Shown here piece after piece: positions 115-32,290 of a stretch of 64,000 bases of DNA. The notes below the pieces were generated by a model. It searched no databases. It had not been told where the DNA came from and was given only the letters and a program-made list of their open reading frames with translations. This stretch comes from Sebaldella sp. S0638 (GTDB taxonomy: Bacteria; Fusobacteriota; Fusobacteriia; Fusobacteriales; Leptotrichiaceae), in the NCBI RefSeq assembly GCF_024158605.1, contig NZ_JAMZGM010000013.1, positions 1 through 64,000 of the forward strand, given 5' to 3'. Position numbers and translations under genes: made by a program. The number at the start of each line of letters is the position of its first letter. Within the stretch, counting starts at the first letter, position 1.

Positions 115-942
115 CTATCCTTTCATATTCCATAATTTAATAAACTCAGTCATAAATTTTTCTGCTATTTCCCGACTATTGTCAATTGTAATTGTTTCAT
201 TGTGATACTGAGCCTTATTTGTCCAGTTATATGATCCATGTATAACAGTTTTTAAATCAATAACACAAAACTTATTATGCATTAGATTTTTATATGGCCC
301 CCTTGGAGGTAGGGCGATTGTTTCAAAATGCTTCTTACACTTTTCTATTGTTTCTTTATTTATACTATCATCCATTGTAATAATCCTTATACTCAATCCT
401 TCTTTTTGTCTTTTGTATAATTCATTTAGAATCGTTTTATCAGTTATCCATGCTACACAAACCCATATTAAATACTTTGCTGCTTTTATTTGTTCTATGA
501 TTTGGGCTTGTATATCTTCAAAATGCGGGGTAACTTCCACATCATCCGGAAGATCTTCCCCAGTTATTTTATATACTCCATCAAAATCTTGAAATTTATA
601 TCCGTCATTTATAATTATTTCATTAATCTTCTCTACCGCAATATCTCTATTTAACCTTTCATCCTTAGCAAAATGTCGAGAATCAGCTATTAAATTGAAT
701 ATTATTTTTAACTTACTGCTACCGTTTAATTCTTTCAGTATCTTTTCAGTATATTGGTTTCTAGATATCCCCCCTGGTAAACCCAGTGGCAAACCATTGT
801 TTTTATCCCAATTATAAGTATCTCTTATACCCACTTGGTTAAATAGTTTTGTAATGTCAGGGCCTGACAAATAAGGAGTATAGTCGCTATCTCCTATTAC
901 ATAATCTTTCAGTATCTCTATTGATAAATTACTCAATTTCAT
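115..942 (-). CDS. PLD-family nuclease with defence-type N-terminal domain
   Basis: A 275-residue protein. The C-terminal third carries one complete phospholipase D motif: H222-x-K-x4-D229, followed by GSYNWT. One motif per chain is typical of dimeric PLD nucleases (Nuc, BfiI type) rather than two-motif lipid enzymes. There is no signal peptide, so it should act in the cytoplasm. Residues about 1-130 (SGPDITKLFNQVG, later a DGY element) resemble, from memory, the N-terminal sensor domains found in front of TIR or nuclease effectors in AbiJ-like abortive-infection proteins; this is inference. The start is supported by AAAGGTGG about 8 bases upstream. It sits in the integrated element, which suggests cargo defence. 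PLD assignment is firm; the role is a guess. Confidence 0.72.
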   Translation of the reverse strand: MKLSNLSIEILKDYVIGDSDYTPYLSGPDITKLFNQVGIRDTYNWDKNNGLPLGLPGGISRNQYTEKILKELNGSSKLKIIFNLIADSRHFAKDERLNRDIAVEKINEIIINDGYKFQDFDGVYKITGEDLPDDVEVTPHFEDIQAQIIEQIKAAKYLIWVCVAWITDKTILNELYKRQKEGLSIRIITMDDSINKETIEKCKKHFETIALPPRGPYKNLMHNKFCVIDLKTVIHGSYNWTNKAQYHNETITIDNSREIAEKFMTEFIKLWNMKG

Positions 943-1282
943 ATATAGCCACCTTTTATTTTATAAAATTTTATTCAAGATACTTCTGAGGTAAAAAAGA
1001 GTCCGAGGGTCTCGCGATCCCAAATAAGAACTAGATTTATTCTAAAAAAATTTTCATTACGTTTCGTTTAGTTAACTCCTTAAATTGCTATATCTCTTAT
1101 TAATAAAGGAATTAACAATATAAAATGAACTATGTATGCAAGTCTTATGCATTTCGTTTTAAATGTATCTCTGGAATATAAAAGGTACTTCCAGAGTATA
1201 TTATTAACGGGTCTTGCGAGTTCCAGAGAACACATATTTATTGGATTATTTTATCTTCATGTCCTGTCCAAGTATTTAAGAC
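943..1282. other. Noncoding stretch with inverted repeats
   Basis: No supported gene lies here. Two inverted repeats are visible. GTTAACTCCTT (1071-1081) faces AAGGAATTAAC (1116-1126), 10 of 11 matching. CTCTGGAA (1169-1176) faces TTCCAGAG (1189-1196), with a further TTCCAGAG copy at 1221-1228. The stretch must contain the promoter of the PLD gene, but no convincing -35/-10 pair was seen. The hairpins could be terminators, RNA structure or protein sites. Confidence 0.4.
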
Positions 1283-1594
1283 TTATAAAAACCTCACAAT
1301 AGTTCCGCATATAGTACCTATAATAAAACTACTTACTACAATTATTGGGGCAGATTTCCTATCGCTTTTTGATACAATAATAACCATGGGTAAGGCACAT
1401 ATCACATATAATAATCCACCCATTACAATTTTGGATATATTTATATTTAGATAATACAAAATTGTCGGCATTATAAAATGGAATATAAATGCTGAGGAAC
1501 AATCGAACTTGTCTAATTTTTTCTTTACCATTGGTAGTACATCAATTATTCCGAACAATATTCCTATTCCTAATAATATAACTTGAATTTTCAT
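1283..1594 (-). CDS. Small integral membrane protein, unknown
   Basis: A 103-residue, very hydrophobic protein with about four predicted membrane segments (roughly residues 4-22, 34-50, 56-76 and 81-101). Charged KKKLDKFD and SKSDRKS loops separate them. The start has a strong ribosome-binding site (AAAGGAGATC, 6 bases before ATG). No catalytic motif is visible and the family was not recognised. It lies between the PLD gene and the long noncoding structured region inside the integrated element. It may be a cargo gene; a membrane partner of the PLD protein is possible but unsupported. Confidence 0.6.
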   Translation of the reverse strand: MKIQVILLGIGILFGIIDVLPMVKKKLDKFDCSSAFIFHFIMPTILYYLNINISKIVMGGLLYVICALPMVIIVSKSDRKSAPIIVVSSFIIGTICGTIVRFL

Positions 1595-1619
1595 AGTTGA
1601 TCTCCTTTCAAAAGTTTAT

Positions 1620-2440
1620 AATATATTACCTGTGTCAAGAGTCACGACAGAGGGGCGAGGAAATTACTCAGTCCTTAATTATCATGAGGCGCACGATTCG
1701 TTCAGTCATTGCAAACACTAGTTTTGAAGTATACTGAAATTTTAGTATAGCTATTTATAAGGGGTGTATGTTTTGGACAGACCCTAAGTCAGACTTAGGG
1801 GCATCACTGACAGCTACTTAAAGCTAGAGTAACATTTTGTGACGTCAGATAAAGCCAAAACTCGCCATATCTATGTCCACTCAAATCTGAGAAGATCACT
1901 CAAATTTGGATTAACCTAAAATATTCTGAGCTGCCACTCTTTTCTGAGTCACTTTGTGCGATTCAGCGATTATATATTATAGAATTAAAAAATATATCTC
2001 CTCAAACTTTAGGTGATCTATTTCTTATTTTAGCCGGCTAAAAAATCAGCAGAATAAAACTTCTACTATAGGCCCCAAAATAGCGAAATCCCAATCATGG
2101 GTTCTGAGGATTTTGTTATTTATCAGCTCATTTTTGAGCTGATCTTAACCAATAGATTTCAAATCTGACAGCTCATTTTTGAGCAGTCCTCAGCCGGTAC
2201 ATTTGAAATGTATCGCTATTTCTTCCTGAAATGAAATTTTCTTTTCTAGTATATTGCCTGGATTTAATCTAGGCTGTTATATTTTCAATTACCTCATGCT
2301 TTACGATGCAGTACCACTGGATCAGGTTTAAACTCCAGAGCTCATATTTTCGATTTAAGGGCATTTCTGCTCGCCGAACTATTTGACGTAGAGCAATGTG
2401 TAGATTTGTTTTAAAATCAAAATTTGGAGCCCTTAAGGAT
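1620..2440. ncRNA. Large structured noncoding region, candidate ornate RNA
   Basis: About 820 bases without a credible gene are dense in strong stems. CCCTAAGTC/GACTTAGGG lies at 1782-1800. TGACGTCA lies at 1840-1847. CACTCAAAT is repeated at 1879 and 1897. A 16-base palindrome centred on TAGCCGGCTA lies at 2028-2043. A closed multibranch domain spans 2078-2221 (separate entry). GCCTGGATT-T-AATCTAGGC lies at about 2257-2275. A long-range TTAAGGGC (2355-2362) / GCCCTTAA (2429-2436) pair closes the end. Size, location in a mobile element and ornate structure recall ROOL/GOLLD-type phage-associated RNAs. That comparison is inference, the strand is undecided, and a DNA-level cis site (origin or packaging) is the main alternative. 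Confidence 0.45.
2078..2221. repeat. Nested hairpin domain with duplicated stem-loop module
   Basis: AAATAGCGA (2078-2086) pairs with TCGCTATTT (2213-2221) and encloses everything else. Inside, CTGAGGA (2104-2110) pairs with TCCTCAG (2187-2193), and CCCA/TGGG closes a small hairpin at 2090-2101. ATCAGCTCA/TGAGCTGAT (2122-2143) is a perfect 9-bp stem with a TTTT loop. Its core recurs as GCTCA/TGAGC at 2171-2184. Each copy is followed by a short palindromic hairpin: AGATTTCAAATCT (2154-2166) and TACATTTGAAATGTA (2198-2212). The loops TTCAA and TTGAA of these two are complementary, so they could kiss. Confidence 0.6.
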
Positions 2441-3043
2441 TTATTTATTATGCTTCTTCTCATAAGTTATATTTTGGACATAATTATCCCATATATTTTG
2501 TTCTCTTGGCGTCAATTTTTCAATATATTCATCTCCATAAATTCCTTGTTTTCGTTTTACTCTCTCAAGTTCTTCATCTGTATAGTCATCAGCATTTTCA
2601 TATTCATCAAAAGCATTTTCAATTTTTTCTTCAATAAGTTCTTCTATGTCATTAATTAATTCAGCAATATTTATTTTGCCTACCCTATCTTCATAAGCAA
2701 TATAATATTCATATCCATAACCGAATTCTGTCTCTTCTTCTAATATTCTATAGTCCATTAATCCTATCATTTTTTTTATAAGATCATCTATCATAGCTTG
2801 TGATTCAAAATCTCCGATTAATTTATATAAGCTAACTTCTAAAATATCGGCTATTTCATTAAGAAGAGAGTCAGAGATGGGTATTTGCCCATATTCATAC
2901 CTTTGAATTGTATAAGTAGTTTTCTCAAGCCTTTTCCCAAGGTCTTCTTGAGTTATCTTTCTTAACAATCTATATTTTTTGATATTTTTACCTATTATTT
3001 TATCCTTATCTTGTTGAGGTTCTTGTGACTTATTAGATTCCAT
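2441..3043 (-). CDS. XRE-family HTH repressor of the integrated element
   Basis: A 200-residue protein with an N-terminal helix-turn-helix of the XRE/Cro-CI type at about residues 17-75 (IGKNIKKYRLLRKITQEDLGKRL, then TYTIQRYEYGQIPISDSLLNEIADIL). An acidic C-terminal region has no recognised peptidase motif. It is divergent from a Cro-like reading frame and the primase operon, the usual lysogeny-switch arrangement. It probably binds the ACCACTT/AAGTGGT repeats in the 3044-3189 interval. The start has GGTGAG upstream. The protein lacks a LexA/CI-type Ser-Lys autocleavage module, so induction is unlikely to be by direct RecA cleavage. Confidence 0.85.
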   Translation of the reverse strand: MESNKSQEPQQDKDKIIGKNIKKYRLLRKITQEDLGKRLEKTTYTIQRYEYGQIPISDSLLNEIADILEVSLYKLIGDFESQAMIDDLIKKMIGLMDYRILEEETEFGYGYEYYIAYEDRVGKINIAELINDIEELIEEKIENAFDEYENADDYTDEELERVKRKQGIYGDEYIEKLTPREQNIWDNYVQNITYEKKHNK

Positions 3044-3107
3044 TTATCTCACCCACTAGTGTTTTTTACTATTTTATCATTTATTTTTTAAATTTCAAAA
3101 CTTTTTA

Positions 3108-3157
3108 TTGACAAAAACCACTTATGACGTTATATTTATGACAACATAAAAAGTGGT
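3108..3157 (+). promoter_or_regulatory. Element early promoter with repressor-type operator
   Basis: TTGACA (3108-3113), a 17-base spacer and TATATT (3131-3136) form a near-consensus sigma-70 promoter reading into the Cro-like gene and primase. ACCACTT (3117-3123) and its inverted copy AAGTGGT (3151-3157) flank the -10 element, a plausible operator for the divergent XRE repressor. A palindrome CACTAGTG lies at 3054-3061, next to the repressor start. Confidence 0.7.
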
Positions 3158-3189
3158 GTAAATGTTTTTAGAAAAGGAGAGTGTAAAAA

Positions 3190-3390
3190 ATTAAAATAAG
3201 AAAGTTAAAAGCATTATTACTGGAATATAATTACAAGTATTGTGAAGTGGCTAATGCTTTGAAAATATCAGAATCAAATGTAGCTGCTAAAATGAATGAC
3301 AAACGGGAATTTAAACCAAGTGAAATATCAAAGCTGAGAAAACTTTTAAAATTAACAGATCAAGAAGTCATTGAAATATTTATTGATTAG
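3190..3390 (+). CDS. Small Cro-like HTH protein, non-ATG start
   Basis: A 66-codon open frame ends at TAG 3388-3390. It reads as a helix-turn-helix peptide (YKYCEVANALKISESNVAAK, then FKPSEISKLRKLLKLTDQEV), much like phage Cro/DUF739-type regulators. No ATG, GTG or TTG lies at a sensible place near the 5' end. An in-frame TAA lies at 3184-3186, and the first sense codons after it are AAA then ATT (3190). A strong AAAGGAG at 3173-3179 sits 10 bases before the ATT, so initiation at ATT is proposed. Alternatives are ATA at 3196 or a decayed start. It directly follows the early promoter and precedes the Cse60-like gene. Confidence 0.55.
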   Translation: MKIRKLKALLLEYNYKYCEVANALKISESNVAAKMNDKREFKPSEISKLRKLLKLTDQEVIEIFID

Positions 3391-3402
3391 AAAGGAGAAA
3401 AT

Positions 3403-3606
3403 ATGCAGATAGAAACATTTAAAACTAAATGTCAAGCTGTAACGACAGGCGGTAAGGTTAGAGGAGTGTATCAAACTTTAGAAGAATTGCAGGAAGAAGT
3501 GAACGATTTTATCCGGCAAGTAAAAGTATTTGACATAAAACATACTATTGAAGCAGCCAATACTACCATTCACTACTTCACAGTAATATATGAAGAAGAG
3601 GAATAA
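3403..3606 (+). CDS. Small Cse60-like protein
   Basis: A 67-residue protein with a good ribosome-binding site (AAAGGAG, 6 bases before ATG). The pattern LEELQEEVNDFIRQ, KVFDIKHT and a closing HYFTVIYEEEE resembles the small Cse60-like family seen in Firmicutes phages and elements: a helix followed by beta strands. Function is unknown even in that family, and the match is from memory. It lies 12 bases after the Cro-like frame and 15 bases before the primase-helicase gene, so it is probably an early gene of the same operon. Confidence 0.6.
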   Translation: MQIETFKTKCQAVTTGGKVRGVYQTLEELQEEVNDFIRQVKVFDIKHTIEAANTTIHYFTVIYEEEE

Positions 3607-3621
3607 AAGGAGGGTCTTACA

Positions 3622-5556
3622 ATGAACTTTAAGGAATGTTACAAAGGCTTTCTACAGTCTAATGGTAAAGCTCCCGCAGTATCTTATAAAAGTAAAAATA
3701 CAAAGTTTTTATCCTATGAAGCTGCAAAAACTTACAATGAATTTGTTGGGATACTGGCAGATAATACCATATTGGTAGATGTGGATACTGAACTTGAGGG
3801 AGAATTATTAAAATCAATCCTGGAGGAAATGGAGATAAAATGCCCTGTATTAAGAACCACAAAAGGTTATCATTTTTTATTCAAACATAATAATATGTAT
3901 AAAAAATGTACTTCAAAAATCAAAACTCCAATAGGAATAACTATTGATGTTAAGTTCGGAGCTCACCTGGGCGTACAATGTTTAAAACTCAGCGGTGTTG
4001 AAAGAGAAATATTGAGTGATCCAAATTATGACGAAATACCGGAAATACCAAAATTCTTGTATGCACCTACTAAGAATACATTTAAGAATCTTGATGTTAT
4101 TGAAATGGGAGAGGGCGAACGGAATAATACTTTAAGTGCTCATAAATTTCATTTATATAAATTAGGCTACAACGACAATGAAATAATGGAAATATGTTGT
4201 CTTATTAATGAATATGTATTTTCTGAATCATTGGACGAGGACGAATTTCAAACTATCATGAGAGATGAAAATATACCAAAACAAATCAGATTTTTTGATG
4301 ATAATAATAAATTTCAACATCATAAATTTGCGGAACATATCCGGGATAATTTCCATGTGAAAATGATTGATGATAGGCTGCATATCTATGATAATGGATA
4401 CTACAGATACGATAATGAGAGTAAAATTATAGAGCGGTTTATGCAGGGAACAATTGCCTTTTTAAGCAGACATCAAAGGGCAGAGGCTACAGCCACACTA
4501 AAATTAATATGTGAAGAAGTACAGATTGATAAGTTTTATATTTGTTTCAATAATGGACTTTATCATGTTAAAACTCAAGAGTTTATCCCACATACACCGG
4601 ATATAATATGTACCAATAAAGTACCACATAATTTCTATCCTGAAGCGAGCAGGAATGAGATAGATAAAATAGTATCAAGTTTTGTGTGCGATGATAAAGA
4701 ATTAAAAGCTTTACTCTATGAAATAATTGGATATATATTTTACCCTGATCCCTTCCTTGATAAATGTTTTATCATAAAAGGTGATCACGATAATGGTAAA
4801 AGTAAATTTCTCTATATGATTGAATGCATGGTTGGTAGAAAAAATACCAGTTTTCTTGATTTAAAGCAGTTTAATGAGAGATTTACTCCGTCAACACTGT
4901 ATGGAAAACTAGTTAATATAGGTGATGATATATCTAACCAATTTATGGAAGAAACAGCAATTTTTAAAAAACTTGTCACTGGGGAAACTTTACTTATTGA
5001 AGAAAAAGGAAAAAATGCCGTAGAGTACACACCAAGGGTGAAACATTTTTTCGGGGCAAATGTAATTCCTAGGTTTCCGGATATGACTGGTGCAATAAAG
5101 AAAAGGGTCTTTATAATTCCCTTTAATAATGATTTTAGTCCGGGAAGCCCGAACAGAGATGAATTTATAAATGAAAAATTAGAAAAAGAAGAGAATCAAG
5201 AGGCCCTTATCCAATTGGCAATTGAAAGCTTTAATAAAGTAATGAAAAATGAGGAATTAACAATACCAGAGTGTGTAAAGGATGAGCTCAAAGTATTTGA
5301 TCATGAGAATAATCCTATATTAACATTCATAGAGGAGAAAGATGAGGAATCTCCAAATGGTGGTTGGTACTTAAGAAAAGCAACAACCGAGGTCTTTAAT
5401 TCTTATAAATGGTGGTGCATGGAAAACGGCTATAGAGCTTTTGCACAAAGTAAATTCTCAGCAGAAATGAAAAAACTAAAGCAATTGGATATTAAAAACA
5501 TCAGGGAAAGTGGGAAAGTTTCAAGGTGTTTTGTACAAGAATGCCCTATAAATTGA
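3622..5556 (+). CDS. P4/D5-type primase-helicase of the element
   Basis: A 644-residue replication protein. The N-terminal part (about 1-170) looks like an archaeo-eukaryotic primase/prim-pol domain, with VDVDTE and RTTKGYHFLFK as probable metal- and nucleotide-binding strands. The C-terminal part (about 330-620) is a D5-like superfamily 3 helicase: Walker A GDHDNGKSKF near residue 393, followed by LVNIGDDIS as Walker B-like and a FFGANVIPRF sensor. Such proteins unwind and prime at an element's own origin. AGGAGG precedes the ATG. Downstream lies an iteron-like array that may be that origin. The protein is full length with no visible disruption. Confidence 0.88.
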   Translation: MNFKECYKGFLQSNGKAPAVSYKSKNTKFLSYEAAKTYNEFVGILADNTILVDVDTELEGELLKSILEEMEIKCPVLRTTKGYHFLFKHNNMYKKCTSKIKTPIGITIDVKFGAHLGVQCLKLSGVEREILSDPNYDEIPEIPKFLYAPTKNTFKNLDVIEMGEGERNNTLSAHKFHLYKLGYNDNEIMEICCLINEYVFSESLDEDEFQTIMRDENIPKQIRFFDDNNKFQHHKFAEHIRDNFHVKMIDDRLHIYDNGYYRYDNESKIIERFMQGTIAFLSRHQRAEATATLKLICEEVQIDKFYICFNNGLYHVKTQEFIPHTPDIICTNKVPHNFYPEASRNEIDKIVSSFVCDDKELKALLYEIIGYIFYPDPFLDKCFIIKGDHDNGKSKFLYMIECMVGRKNTSFLDLKQFNERFTPSTLYGKLVNIGDDISNQFMEETAIFKKLVTGETLLIEEKGKNAVEYTPRVKHFFGANVIPRFPDMTGAIKKRVFIIPFNNDFSPGSPNRDEFINEKLEKEENQEALIQLAIESFNKVMKNEELTIPECVKDELKVFDHENNPILTFIEEKDEESPNGGWYLRKATTEVFNSYKWWCMENGYRAFAQSKFSAEMKKLKQLDIKNIRESGKVSRCFVQECPIN

Positions 5557-5560
5557 AAGT

Positions 5561-5852
5561 GTTATGCATTTCTGAACTCCCAGTTGTCTATTATTACTAG
5601 GTTTTATGCTTTTTAGTTACGCTTAGTTATGCATTGATGTAAATAAGCATAACAGCGGAATGAATGATCGCTACTGGACTAGAATATATTTTGTTACGCT
5701 GTTACTATTAAATTTATATTCTTATATATATAGACAAAGTAATAAAATTAAAAATAATATATATATTTATATATAAGGAATAAGAAAAGATGCGTAACAG
5801 TAACATAATAGATTCAACAACTGGAAAACAAAGGGTTTTGATGTGTTACGCT
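5561..5852 (+). other. Putative replication origin: GTTAYGCW iterons and AT-rich segment
   Basis: The motif GTTAYGCW occurs seven times in 292 bases. Forward copies start at 5561, 5616, 5626, 5693 and 5845; reverse copies lie at 5646-5653 and 5791-5798. Degenerate GTTACT copies abut two of them (5701 and 5799-5804). Between 5705 and 5780 lies an almost pure A/T stretch suited to unwinding. The array begins just after the primase-helicase stop codon. In P4-like and plasmid systems the primase or initiator binds iterons of this kind next to its gene; assigning origin function here is inference. Confidence 0.6.
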
Positions 5853-5908
5853 CTAAAAATGATATATGTAACATTTTGCTGAATAATGTTGAAATAAAAG
5901 TGATAATT

Positions 5909-6199
5909 ATGACGATATTAGAAGGACTGATGAAATTGTATAACATAACTAAGAAAGACTTAGCAGCACAACTGGGAGTTACTACTAGAACATTGAATAG
6001 AAGACTAAAAGATACAAGTGAATGGAAATTACGGGATATTAATAATATTGTTGATATTTTTAGTCTAGAATCGTATCAATTTAAATATATATTCAAATCA
6101 AAAGTTGCTATTAATGGGAAAGAATTAGATAAGTGGATAAAGAAAATGGAGTGTTTTATTAATAGAAACGCTACTACAAAATACTGCAATAAAATGTAG
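5909..6199 (+). CDS. Small HTH regulator of the element
   Basis: About 96 residues from the ATG at 5909. The frame stays open back to a GTG at 5843, but that would overlap the last iteron. The N-terminal half is a helix-turn-helix (LEGLMKLYNITKKDLAAQLGVTTRTLNRRLKD), closest to XRE or small phage regulators. The C-terminal half (INGKELDKWIKKMECFINR) is unassigned. No good ribosome-binding site is seen before either start, so the start is uncertain. Its position between the presumed origin and the integrase suggests control of replication or excision. Confidence 0.6.
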   Translation: MTILEGLMKLYNITKKDLAAQLGVTTRTLNRRLKDTSEWKLRDINNIVDIFSLESYQFKYIFKSKVAINGKELDKWIKKMECFINRNATTKYCNKM

Positions 6200-6349
6200 G
6201 GAAATGTTGGAAATAAAATTTTGTAATTGCTAAGAAATGCTAAGGTATAAAACATTAGTATTCTATGGTCGATGTTATAAATGCAACCTGAGAAAACCTA
6301 TATATTGAACTAGATAATACTAGACTTTTTAAATAAAAGAGGTGATAAA

Positions 6350-6502
6350 ATGAAAAGTTTCTTTGAGTCTGCAGCTGGAATCATATTATTAATCGGAGCA
6401 GGATCAGAAAATTTGCTGACTACTGCAACATTTATAATAATATTTGTATTATTTATGGCCTGTCTAAAAATAAAAAAAGAGATAGTAATCCAGCTAGATT
6501 AA
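6350..6502 (+). CDS. 50-residue membrane peptide
   Basis: A short frame opened by a strong ribosome-binding site (AGAGGTGAT, then ATG at 6350). The predicted product is a short amphipathic start, AAGIILLIGAGS, then a hydrophobic segment TATFIIIFVLFMACL and a basic tail KIKKE. It looks like a one- or two-segment membrane peptide: holin-like, toxin-like or regulatory. An inverted repeat AGAGATAG/CTATCTCT (6478-6485/6504-6511) overlaps its end. No family was recognised. Existence rests on the ribosome-binding site and composition only. Confidence 0.45.
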   Translation: MKSFFESAAGIILLIGAGSENLLTTATFIIIFVLFMACLKIKKEIVIQLD

Positions 6503-6526
6503 GCTATCTCTGCAAATCTTTTCTCG

Positions 6527-6582
6527 TTGGAGAAAAAACTATCGTGTGATATAATTATTACAACAACAGAATTATATCACAC
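6527..6582 (+). promoter_or_regulatory. Integrase promoter embedded in a 13-bp inverted repeat
   Basis: TTGGAG (6527-6532), a 17-base spacer and TATAAT (6550-6555) form a good promoter about 60 bases before the integrase ATG. The -10 element lies inside GTGTGATATAATT (6544-6556), which is repeated exactly inverted as AATTATATCACAC (6570-6582) with a 13-base gap. Such symmetry over a -10 box suggests a repressor operator, or a hairpin at the 5' end of the integrase mRNA. Confidence 0.65.
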
Positions 6583-6613
6583 TTTAAAATTTTTTTAAAG
6601 GATGTGATTTTTT

Positions 6614-7639
6614 ATGAGAAATCCTAATGGATATGGAAGTGTCCATAAACTTTCAGGAAAAAGAAGAAAACCCTATGCTGTTCAAGTTACAACAGGATGG
6701 GATGAAGAAGGTAGGCAAATAAGAAAATATTTAAGCTATCATACTTCTAAATCAGAAGCCATGAGAGCATTAGCAAAGTATAATGATAACCCATATGATC
6801 TGGATAATATTTCTGTCACATTTGCTGAAATATACAATAGATGGAGTGAACTTAAATTTAAAGAAATTGGTAGATCAGGAATTCTTGGATATCAAGCTGC
6901 TTATAAAACCTGTGAGCCTTTATACAATATAAAGTTTCAAGATATCAAAACAAGTCATCTGCAGGGAATAGTACAAAATTGTGGCAAAAAACATCAATCT
7001 TTGAAGAAGATAAAGGTACTGTTTAATCAACTTTTTGAATATGCTATGAAGCATGATATTGTTATGAAAGATTATAGTAATTTTGTTGAAATTGGTAAAA
7101 ATAAAGAAGTATCCACAAGAAAACCTTTTTCAGCAGAAGAAATCCAAATACTTTGGGAAAATTCACATTTACCCTATGTTGATACTATTCTGATTATGAT
7201 TTATTCTGGATTTAGAATAGGTGAATTGTTAGATATTAAATTAGAAAATATTGATTTGATCAACAGAACTATCACAGGTGGTTCTAAAACAGAAGCAGGT
7301 AAGAATAGACTTGTTCCTATACATGATAAAATTTTTGATTTTATTAAAAATAGAATGGAGTATAATAAAAGTGAGTATTTGATATGTAATTCAAGAAATA
7401 AAAAGATCCTATATGATCTGTATAAAACTAAATATTTTTATGGTGCTATGGAAAAACTTAGCATGTGCCACAAACCGCATGATTGTAGACATACTTTTGC
7501 GACTTTATTAAATAATGCAGAAGCAAATAGCACATCAATTAAAAACCTAATCGGGCATAGTAACTTCCTGACTACTGAAAAAATATACTCTCATAAAGAT
7601 GTGGAAGAATTGAGAAAAGCTATTAAATTAATCAAATAA
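6614..7639 (+). CDS. int: Tyrosine-recombinase integrase
   Basis: A 341-residue site-specific recombinase that would integrate and excise the element. Residues about 1-50 form an arm-type DNA-binding domain (NGYGSVHKLSGKRRKPY, VTTGWDEEG). About 60-150 is a core-binding SAM-like domain. The catalytic domain keeps all key residues: R201 (SGFRIGE), H289 and R292 (HDCRH), H315 (GHSN) and nucleophile Y325 (EKIYSHKD). It is full length and in frame. AAAGGATGTG precedes the start. Its stop lies about 100 bases from the point where the mupG-like gene breaks off, as expected for an integrase beside attR or attL. Confidence 0.93.
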   Translation: MRNPNGYGSVHKLSGKRRKPYAVQVTTGWDEEGRQIRKYLSYHTSKSEAMRALAKYNDNPYDLDNISVTFAEIYNRWSELKFKEIGRSGILGYQAAYKTCEPLYNIKFQDIKTSHLQGIVQNCGKKHQSLKKIKVLFNQLFEYAMKHDIVMKDYSNFVEIGKNKEVSTRKPFSAEEIQILWENSHLPYVDTILIMIYSGFRIGELLDIKLENIDLINRTITGGSKTEAGKNRLVPIHDKIFDFIKNRMEYNKSEYLICNSRNKKILYDLYKTKYFYGAMEKLSMCHKPHDCRHTFATLLNNAEANSTSIKNLIGHSNFLTTEKIYSHKDVEELRKAIKLIK

Positions 7640-31849: not shown

Positions 31850-31933
31850 TGGTGCGAGAGGTGGGACTCGAACCCACACACCAAAGGCGCTAGATCCTAA
31901 GTCTAGTGCGTCTACCAATTTCACCACTCTCGC
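31850..31933 (-). tRNA. tRNA-Leu(UAG)
   Basis: Acceptor arms GCGAGAG/CTCTCGC, anticodon stem CTAGA/TCTAG with loop CTTAGGA (anticodon TAG), a class II variable arm and TTCGAGTCC T-loop. The CCA end is encoded. Last gene of the five-tRNA cluster. Confidence 0.97.
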
Positions 31934-31941
31934 ATAAAAGA

Positions 31942-32017
31942 TGGTGAGCCATACTGGAATCGAACCAGTGACACCATGATTAAAAGTCATGTGCTCTACC
32001 GACTGAGCTAATGGCTC
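31942..32017 (-). tRNA. tRNA-Lys(UUU)
   Basis: Acceptor arms GAGCCAT/ATGGCTC, D-loop with AGTCGGTA, anticodon loop CTTTTAA (anticodon TTT), T-loop TTCGATTC, encoded CCA. Confidence 0.97.
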
Positions 32018-32044
32018 ATATTCTATTGTCATAAATAAGATACA

Positions 32045-32121
32045 TGGGGTGACCGACGGGGCTCGAACCCGCGACAACCAGTACCACAAACTGGCGCTCT
32101 ACCAACTGAACTACGGTCACC
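32045..32121 (-). tRNA. tRNA-His(GUG)
   Basis: Acceptor arms GTGACCG/CGGTCAC with the extra G(-1) paired to C73, as required by histidyl-tRNA synthetase. Anticodon loop TTGTGGT (anticodon GTG), encoded CCA. Confidence 0.97.
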
Positions 32122-32131
32122 ATAATATTAA

Positions 32132-32207
32132 TGGAGCGGGAGACGAGGGTCGAACTCGCGACATTCAGCTTGGAAGGCTGACGCTCTACCAACTGAGCTA
32201 CTCCCGC
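32132..32207 (-). tRNA. tRNA-Gly(UCC)
   Basis: Acceptor arms GCGGGAG/CTCCCGC, anticodon stem CAGC/GCTG with loop CTTCCAA (anticodon TCC), T-loop TTCGACCC, encoded CCA. Confidence 0.97.
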
Positions 32208-32213
32208 ATATAA

Positions 32214-32290
32214 TGGTCGGTGCAGCAGGATTTGAACCTGCGGCCCCCTGCTCCCAAGGCAGGTACGCTACCGGGCTGCGCCATGCACCG
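32214..32290 (-). tRNA. tRNA-Pro(UGG)
   Basis: Acceptor arms CGGTGCA/TGCACCG, anticodon stem CCTGC/GCAGG with loop CTTGGGA (anticodon TGG), T-loop TTCAAATC, encoded CCA. First gene of the cluster. Confidence 0.97.

Follow-up and report, generated by a model that had tools for sequence, protein, structure and literature searches.

Through its antirepressor a phage can induce other phages and bring lysogeny to an end. In phages P1 and P7 the c4 RNA, described as a small antisense RNA whose complementary parts are probably in loops, controls the antirepressor mRNA and thereby sets heteroimmunity, whilst the sar RNA of P22 is described as an antisense RNA that pairs with the ant mRNA (PMC12197685). 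Single antisense RNAs against antirepressors are therefore already known. Phage-related DNA also carries large noncoding structured stretches of another kind, the ROOL and GOLLD RNAs.

The window analysed here is a stretch of 64,000 nucleotides from Sebaldella sp. S0638 (contig NZ_JAMZGM010000013.1, positions 1 to 64,000), in which positions 1620-2440 are made up of many short hairpins; several of these match a palindromic site that varies between phage antirepressor genes. The c4 RNA exerts its effect near the ribosome site of a single mRNA, whereas units of this array match a site inside the coding sequence of several genes; unlike c4, such arrays are carried by satellite-like elements and a plasmid, and no Rfam family reached its gathering score in 1400-2700. 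The sar RNA is a single 68/69-nt RNA for one gene, whereas the array combines hairpins that match two antirepressor families, Rha and Bro-N. The array resembles CRISPR in being a compact set of short segments that match phage sequence, but it has hairpins in place of spacers and no regular identical repeats, and no cas match was found among the ten window proteins scanned. Like the ROOL and GOLLD RNAs it is a large, noncoding and structured stretch in phage-related DNA, but it differs from them in having no match to their sequence-structure models and no covariation that could be seen. Among the matches listed in searches of the open-access literature (titles and abstract openings of papers other than preprints), there was neither an allele-specific palindrome in Rha or Bro-N coding sequence nor an array of such palindromes, and for the array as a library of gene-internal palindromes we found no known equivalent.

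The left 7.6 kb of the window is a small mobile element with an integrase, a primase, an HTH pair, a 103-aa protein and a PLD-like protein (Table 1), which by its gene content appears to be satellite-like. The contig begins inside the element, the left end of which falls outside the contig. In the 97 further genomes of the class that were searched, no relative of the 103-aa protein was detected, and a search of viral contigs with this protein and the primase gave no result. Beside the integrase, 7703-8227 matches only positions 2-152 of the 237 in MupG_N, as if this gene had been entered by the element. The stretch before the integrase, 6451-6613, is strongly structured (folding z -5.6 on both strands for 6451-6600) and contains a long inverted repeat, GTGTGATATAATTA...GAATTATATCACAC, with similar repeats before the integrases of three Sebaldella prophage-like loci (L092, L093 and L097); it is possibly a promoter or operator of the integrase. 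Elsewhere, five tRNA genes, for Leu, Lys, His, Gly and Pro, are clustered on the minus strand at 31850-32290, and five tRNAs were all that Rfam detected in the whole window at the gathering threshold.

Table 1. Genes of the element and units of the array, with coordinates in the window; fractions are identical positions over aligned positions, and sense and antisense are relative to the antirepressor gene.
Feature	Coordinates	Strand	Remarks
PLD-like protein	115..942	-	56% relative in L055 (G081), weaker relative in G096
103-aa protein, hydrophobic by eye	1283..1594	-	flanks the array
Gene-free hairpin array	1620..2440	- (sense of neighbouring repressor gene)	folding, hairpin counts, ORF listing
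Hairpin common to pSTERM02 array	1629..1653	-	22/27 over 1629-1655; no antirepressor match for the window copy
Unit GACTGAACGAATCGTGCGCC	1688..1708	-	20/21 to Bro-N site of G002 (L096/L242), antisense
Unit, not among the 16 hairpins of the simple rule	1759..1779	-	20/21 to Bro-N site of IMG/VR locus L414, antisense
Unit CTAAGTC-GACTTAGGG	1781..1798	-	Bro-N gene sites, 17/18 (L427) and 16/17 (L239), sense
Hairpin	1996..2017	-	inside 24/27 match to hairpin upstream of C80 integrase (L093); no antirepressor match
Unit	2077..2113	-	31/37 (35/43 over 2077-2119) to C80 Rha gene (L093/L216), antisense
Second GCTCAAAAATGAGC hairpin	2122..2143	-	weak matches only (score 11) at Rha site; reversed control 12
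Unit with GCTCAAAAATGAGC	2167..2190	-	21/24 to Rha gene site in L225, antisense
Unit, hairpin 2195-2215	2194..2212	-	19/19 to Rha gene site of G003 (L219), sense
cI-like HTH repressor gene	2441..3043	-	directly upstream of array
Small HTH frame, DUF739, divergent from repressor	3193..3390	+	no listed ATG/GTG/TTG ORF
D5-type primase/helicase	3622..5556	+	element gene
Tyrosine integrase	6614..7639	+	element gene

The preliminary description of this DNA had presented 1620-2440 as a gene-free, heavily structured region and had proposed it as a candidate large ornate RNA in a mobile element. Its structural observations are borne out: between the ORFs of the 103-aa protein and the repressor there are just short frames, the 16-base palindrome lies exactly at 2028-2043, and both the stem CCCTAAGTC/GACTTAGGG (1782-1800) and the long-range pair of TTAAGGGC (2355-2362) with GCCCTTAA (2429-2436) are found where they had been placed. 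The G+C content is 0.363, compared with 0.292 in 1-1619 and 0.295 in 2441-7639. Predicted RNA folding is stronger than that of shuffled sequences, about equally on both strands, with z scores of -7.2 (minus) and -5.5 (plus) from 20 shuffles each, and -4.2 and -4.6 from 40 shuffles, none of which reached the real value. One simple rule finds 16 hairpins in the array and a stricter rule 11, and within 1000-3100 no direct repeat is longer than a single pair of 41 nt with 78% identity. The noncoding, structured and mobile character of the candidate stands, and five related elements likewise have a stretch without genes in the corresponding position, but neither membership of ROOL or GOLLD nor a single covarying fold does. 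The comparison with Rfam that had been suggested, taken up to E 10 over 1400-2700, returned ten matches, all below gathering score and none to ROOL, GOLLD, C4 or another large RNA, so that assignment to any Rfam family was dropped for the window; Rfam also gave nothing relevant on L006, L009, L010, L012, L052 and L055. The suggested search for covariation, covering the initial 330-390 nt of four related stretches that are close relatives and do not include the window, found none among 83 predicted pairs, and on this basis a single conserved fold was dropped. A decayed gene was likewise dropped since the ten frames tested, of 32 stop-to-stop frames in the stretch, gave no convincing family (best E 0.07 in Pfam and 0.24 in PHROGs).

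The site that the array matches was defined in the antirepressor genes themselves. Rha (PF09669) and Bro-N (PF02498) genes were taken from 98 genomes of the class, using 30 loci each of those found; these 60 genes, one of which was skipped, yielded 50 nonredundant domains, L228-L231 being below the Pfam cut-off. A further 160 loci from IMG/VR (80 Rha of 150 relatives and 80 Bro-N of 374) gave 32 and 59 nonredundant domains respectively, and 80 ORFs drawn at random from the other ORFs of the class loci served as controls. Many of the genes have a near-perfect palindrome, different from one allele to another, around codons 32-62 of the excerpts analysed; examples are AACGCA-TTTT-TGCGTT, GGGTATATCCAATTTTGGATATACCC, GACGCCCTAAAACAGGGCGTC and a perfect palindrome of 37 nt in L231, one of the genes below the Pfam cut-off. 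When compared with synonymous-codon shuffles, 13 of the 50 class domains have a significant palindrome at p≤0.01 and 18 at p≤0.05, all 18 being centred at amino acids 32-62, as against one and two of the 80 control ORFs. The corresponding IMG/VR counts at p≤0.01 are 7/32 for Rha and 10/59 for Bro-N, and 24 of the 25 domains with p≤0.05 are centred at codons 40-49. A palindrome score of at least 18 is reached at the site in 80/139 domains and 3' of it in 3/139 (in a separate count, 2 of the 88 longest). Twelve genes of named phages included three with p≤0.05 (from Staphylococcus phage PH15, Lactococcus phage BK5-T and Ruminococcus phage NatCom_28274), five with a non-significant best palindrome at amino acids 28-43 and four, including those of three actinophages, with the best palindrome elsewhere. 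Hence no significant palindrome was found in 32/50 class domains, 66/91 IMG/VR domains and 9/12 genes of named phages.

Two further properties of the site bear on what it might do. The odd pairs of its palindromes show no excess of G-U on the coding strand (28 GT, 45 AC), hence a hairpin in the mRNA is not specially favoured, and the case for an RNA on the coding strand by way of such an excess was dropped. Nor does a gene's own palindrome recur nearby: within about 1.5 kb, the mean best match was 8.5 in the gene's own locus and 8.8 in other loci (n=106), and 14 of the 106 own loci, one of them strongly (L212), exceeded all four comparison loci. A model in which the site is a cis-operator was dropped because of this result. 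In L212 a second palindrome at about 1039-1071, around 550 nt upstream of the neighbouring Rha gene, resembles the site of that gene; it might represent either a regulatory hairpin cognate to that site or a second antirepressor gene.

Against 139 nonredundant antirepressor domains, all seven matches of the window array with a score of at least 14 fall at the site, four of them with a score of at least 18. Sixty random 849-nt segments of the window gave 107 matches between them, with a best score of 17; 39 of these were at the site, which makes up 38% of the library and would be expected to receive that share, and no segment had five site matches. Four of the array's matches are thus stronger than the best of all 60 controls. 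With a library of 155 domains, 8/8 matches of the array were at the site, compared with two matches in total for the reversed array and 21 matches, six at the site and the best scoring 15, for five other control segments. Two of these eight represent one unit matching two genes, and the match of 1822-1838 to L236, which lies off the palindrome of that gene, is probably due to chance. Complementarity to antirepressor genes, the property by which c4 and sar act, is accordingly present between the window array and this library. Three antirepressor genes were found in the genome of Sebaldella sp. S0638, of which only the C80 Rha gene was matched at a score of at least 14. At a low threshold (score of at least 11) the window hairpins gave 35 matches and their reversed versions 31, with best scores of 19 and 13 respectively. 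Among named phages the window array had four matching records up to E 10, none an antirepressor, and at E 0.1 the window stretch had no result in phages or plasmids; a search of genome contigs with one Rha protein was similarly without result. Early DNA matches to L006, L009 and L012 were dropped, as these were, by eye, ordinary coding region. In a scan of IMG/VR for a 17-mer, five of nine contigs carried it antisense in Bro-N genes and four elsewhere; this was not counted as proof, because about that number of matches was estimated to arise by chance and the pattern selects on codons.

Six units are convincing as counterparts of the site, three to Rha genes (2194-2212, 2167-2190 and 2077-2113) and three to Bro-N genes (1781-1798, 1759-1779 and 1688-1708), whilst 11 of the 16 window hairpins have no convincing antirepressor counterpart. 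The longest match, 2077-2119 against the Rha gene of C80, a further contig of this genome, extends over 43 nt at 81% identity, with the stem altered on both arms. L117 and L123 also have unit 1688-1708 in their gene-free stretches. Its motif (20 positions, up to two mismatches) occurs at five places in the 98 genomes, namely the window, the L117 and L123 stretches, the pSTERM02 stretch described below and, antisense, the Bro-N gene of G002; the backwards pattern occurs at none. Copies in the array are both sense and antisense relative to the antirepressor genes, and a consistent antisense orientation was not found, although this mixture is less telling because the units are near-palindromes.

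Relatives of the element were identified through its repressor, primase and integrase among the 98 genomes of the class, that of the window included. Five loci (L052, L117, L122, L123 and L126), belonging to a genus (g3) that we take to be probably Leptotrichia, have, immediately after a cI-like HTH gene and on the same strand, a stretch of 1.2-2.0 kb in which there is no 80-aa ORF, an arrangement matched by that of the window, where the array is directly 3' of the cI-like gene on the minus strand. Among these five stretches, BLAST pieces of at least 195 nt have 66-86% identity, whereas alignments of the window stretch to them extend over just 42-47 nt, hence the place is common but the sequence mostly is not. 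The primase, integrase and PLD-like protein also have relatives in L055, which belongs to a different family and whose gene-free stretch lies 2.6 kb from its HTH gene. A sister array lies at about 4320-4770 on pSTERM02 (NC_013519.1) of Sebaldella termitidis ATCC 33386; G003, another genome of this genus, has a 13,648-base contig that matches the plasmid without a difference across the 1,901 bases searched. Neither the pSTERM02 array nor that of L055 adjoins a repressor gene.

The pSTERM02 array contains exact 26-nt copies of a Rha site (L219) and a Bro-N site (L239) from the chromosome of the same strain, as well as a 30/32 match to the Bro-N site of G002, and 12 of its 14 matches to the 155 domains are at the site, compared with one match for the reversed sequence. 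In a blind BLAST search of 50,697 phage records (E≤1), all six records matched by this stretch, from four phages, were matched in annotated antirepressor genes, the best being 37/40 in Lactobacillus phage T25 (E 2e-6). The L055 stretch matched 37 phage records, the best 20 of which comprise 14 annotated as antirepressor, three as hypothetical protein and three only as numbered ORFs; its best match is 45/53 (E 1e-6). A further count, from which rows of the array-containing L217 and those with one shared terminator were left out, gave 54 matches inside antirepressor frames and 113 outside, against 27 and 106 for the reversed sequence. Results for the five related stretches were more varied. In its first 400 nt the L123 stretch had 3/3 matches to the 155 domains at the site and none when reversed, whilst the part beyond had 12 matches, five of them at the site, against seven reversed, which is little above the control. 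L052 had six matches, four at the site, with two reversed; against 20 further genes, L122 and L126 had six and five matches, which did not improve on the six and four obtained when reversed. There was no antirepressor in the best 20 of 44 named phage records matched by the L123 stretch, which matched two plasmid records without result. In the L123 stretch a hairpin followed by a T run, terminator-like by eye, lies at about 280-325, some 300 nt after the repressor gene, and could end a short 3' RNA. When L122 (8797-8821) is compared with L117 and L123, one hairpin unit is seen to have been replaced, and the repeated 31-nt units are absent from L126, as if units had been exchanged singly between related stretches. 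One or two array-like hairpins (ACATTTCAAATGT, CTCCTAAAATTTGAGGAG) also occur shortly before the integrase in L092, L093 and L097; the L093 leader had two matches to the 155-domain library, one at the site, and one when reversed.

We propose, with a probability of roughly 0.5, that the array encodes a trans-acting RNA that silences antirepressor mRNAs, as a many-target counterpart of c4 in P1 and sar in P22. The position of the array after the repressor gene suggests expression in lysogeny, and the matches to antirepressor genes suggest that the antirepressor is the target; an RNA made of hairpins and acting in trans seems most likely since c4 and sar are described as silencing antirepressors by pairing (PMC12197685). 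The array would be transcribed in lysogeny, perhaps in the direction of the repressor gene as a 3' extension of its mRNA, and its hairpins would base-pair with their counterparts in antirepressor mRNAs and so keep those mRNAs from being used. Phages, whether resident or incoming, would then be unable to inactivate repressors, and the element may in consequence carry many-target immunity against its rivals. Near-palindromic sites could be paired through their arms with copies of either orientation, hence the mixed orientation of the copies fits an RNA. A bolder version, possible but doubtful, is that the array is a CRISPR-like library of hairpins, free of Cas proteins and drawn from antirepressor genes, in which each RNA silences one allele, and that phages respond by diversifying the palindrome at this one spot of the Rha and Bro-N genes, so that the spot becomes a tag of their immunity group.

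Strand-symmetric palindromes also make roles at the level of DNA possible. They might be sites for a dimeric phage protein, such as the repressor, the antirepressor or another, with the array then acting as DNA decoys or sensors for several phages; the presence of both orientations in the arrays and the lack of a G-U excess are in keeping with this, and the symmetry is fitted equally well by such sites and by RNA. Repressors usually have several operators, however, and the failure of the gene's own palindrome to recur within about 1.5 kb above the level of other loci does not fit; perfect palindromes of up to 37 nt, as in L231, are moreover longer than the usual operator, and we regard DNA sites as unlikely. 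Alternatively, the array could hold silent donor segments from which recombination copies units into antirepressor genes, diversifying their variable site. The allele specificity of the site and the exact 26-nt copies common to pSTERM02 and two chromosomal genes of the same strain would be expected if so, but the units extend little past the palindrome, which is short for the usual recombination, no antirepressor family was matched among the ten window proteins scanned, and nothing links the tyrosine recombinases near the arrays to such copying, making this explanation improbable.

An ornate RNA of the ROOL or GOLLD type, with one global fold and only incidental sharing of hairpins with antirepressor genes, would account for the size, the setting and the folding energy of the array, yet we consider it very improbable given the Rfam and covariation results, the latter for the part tested, and the concentration of matches at one gene site far above the controls. 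Some plus-strand segments (near 1688-1737 and 2077-2119) are readable as antirepressor codons, as they would be in a graveyard of decayed antirepressor genes. That the array is such a graveyard is nonetheless scarcely credible, as the matches are of 17-43 nt, on both strands, to several alleles of two families and nearly always around the palindrome, the frames tested have no family match better than that noted above, and no intact gene homologous to the whole stretch was found.

If the array does act as a trans-acting RNA, it would be a many-target relative of c4, and would represent sequence-specific immunity that operates without Cas proteins and is carried by satellite-like elements and a plasmid. 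It would also explain why an allele-specific palindrome is found in the same coding part of two antirepressor families.
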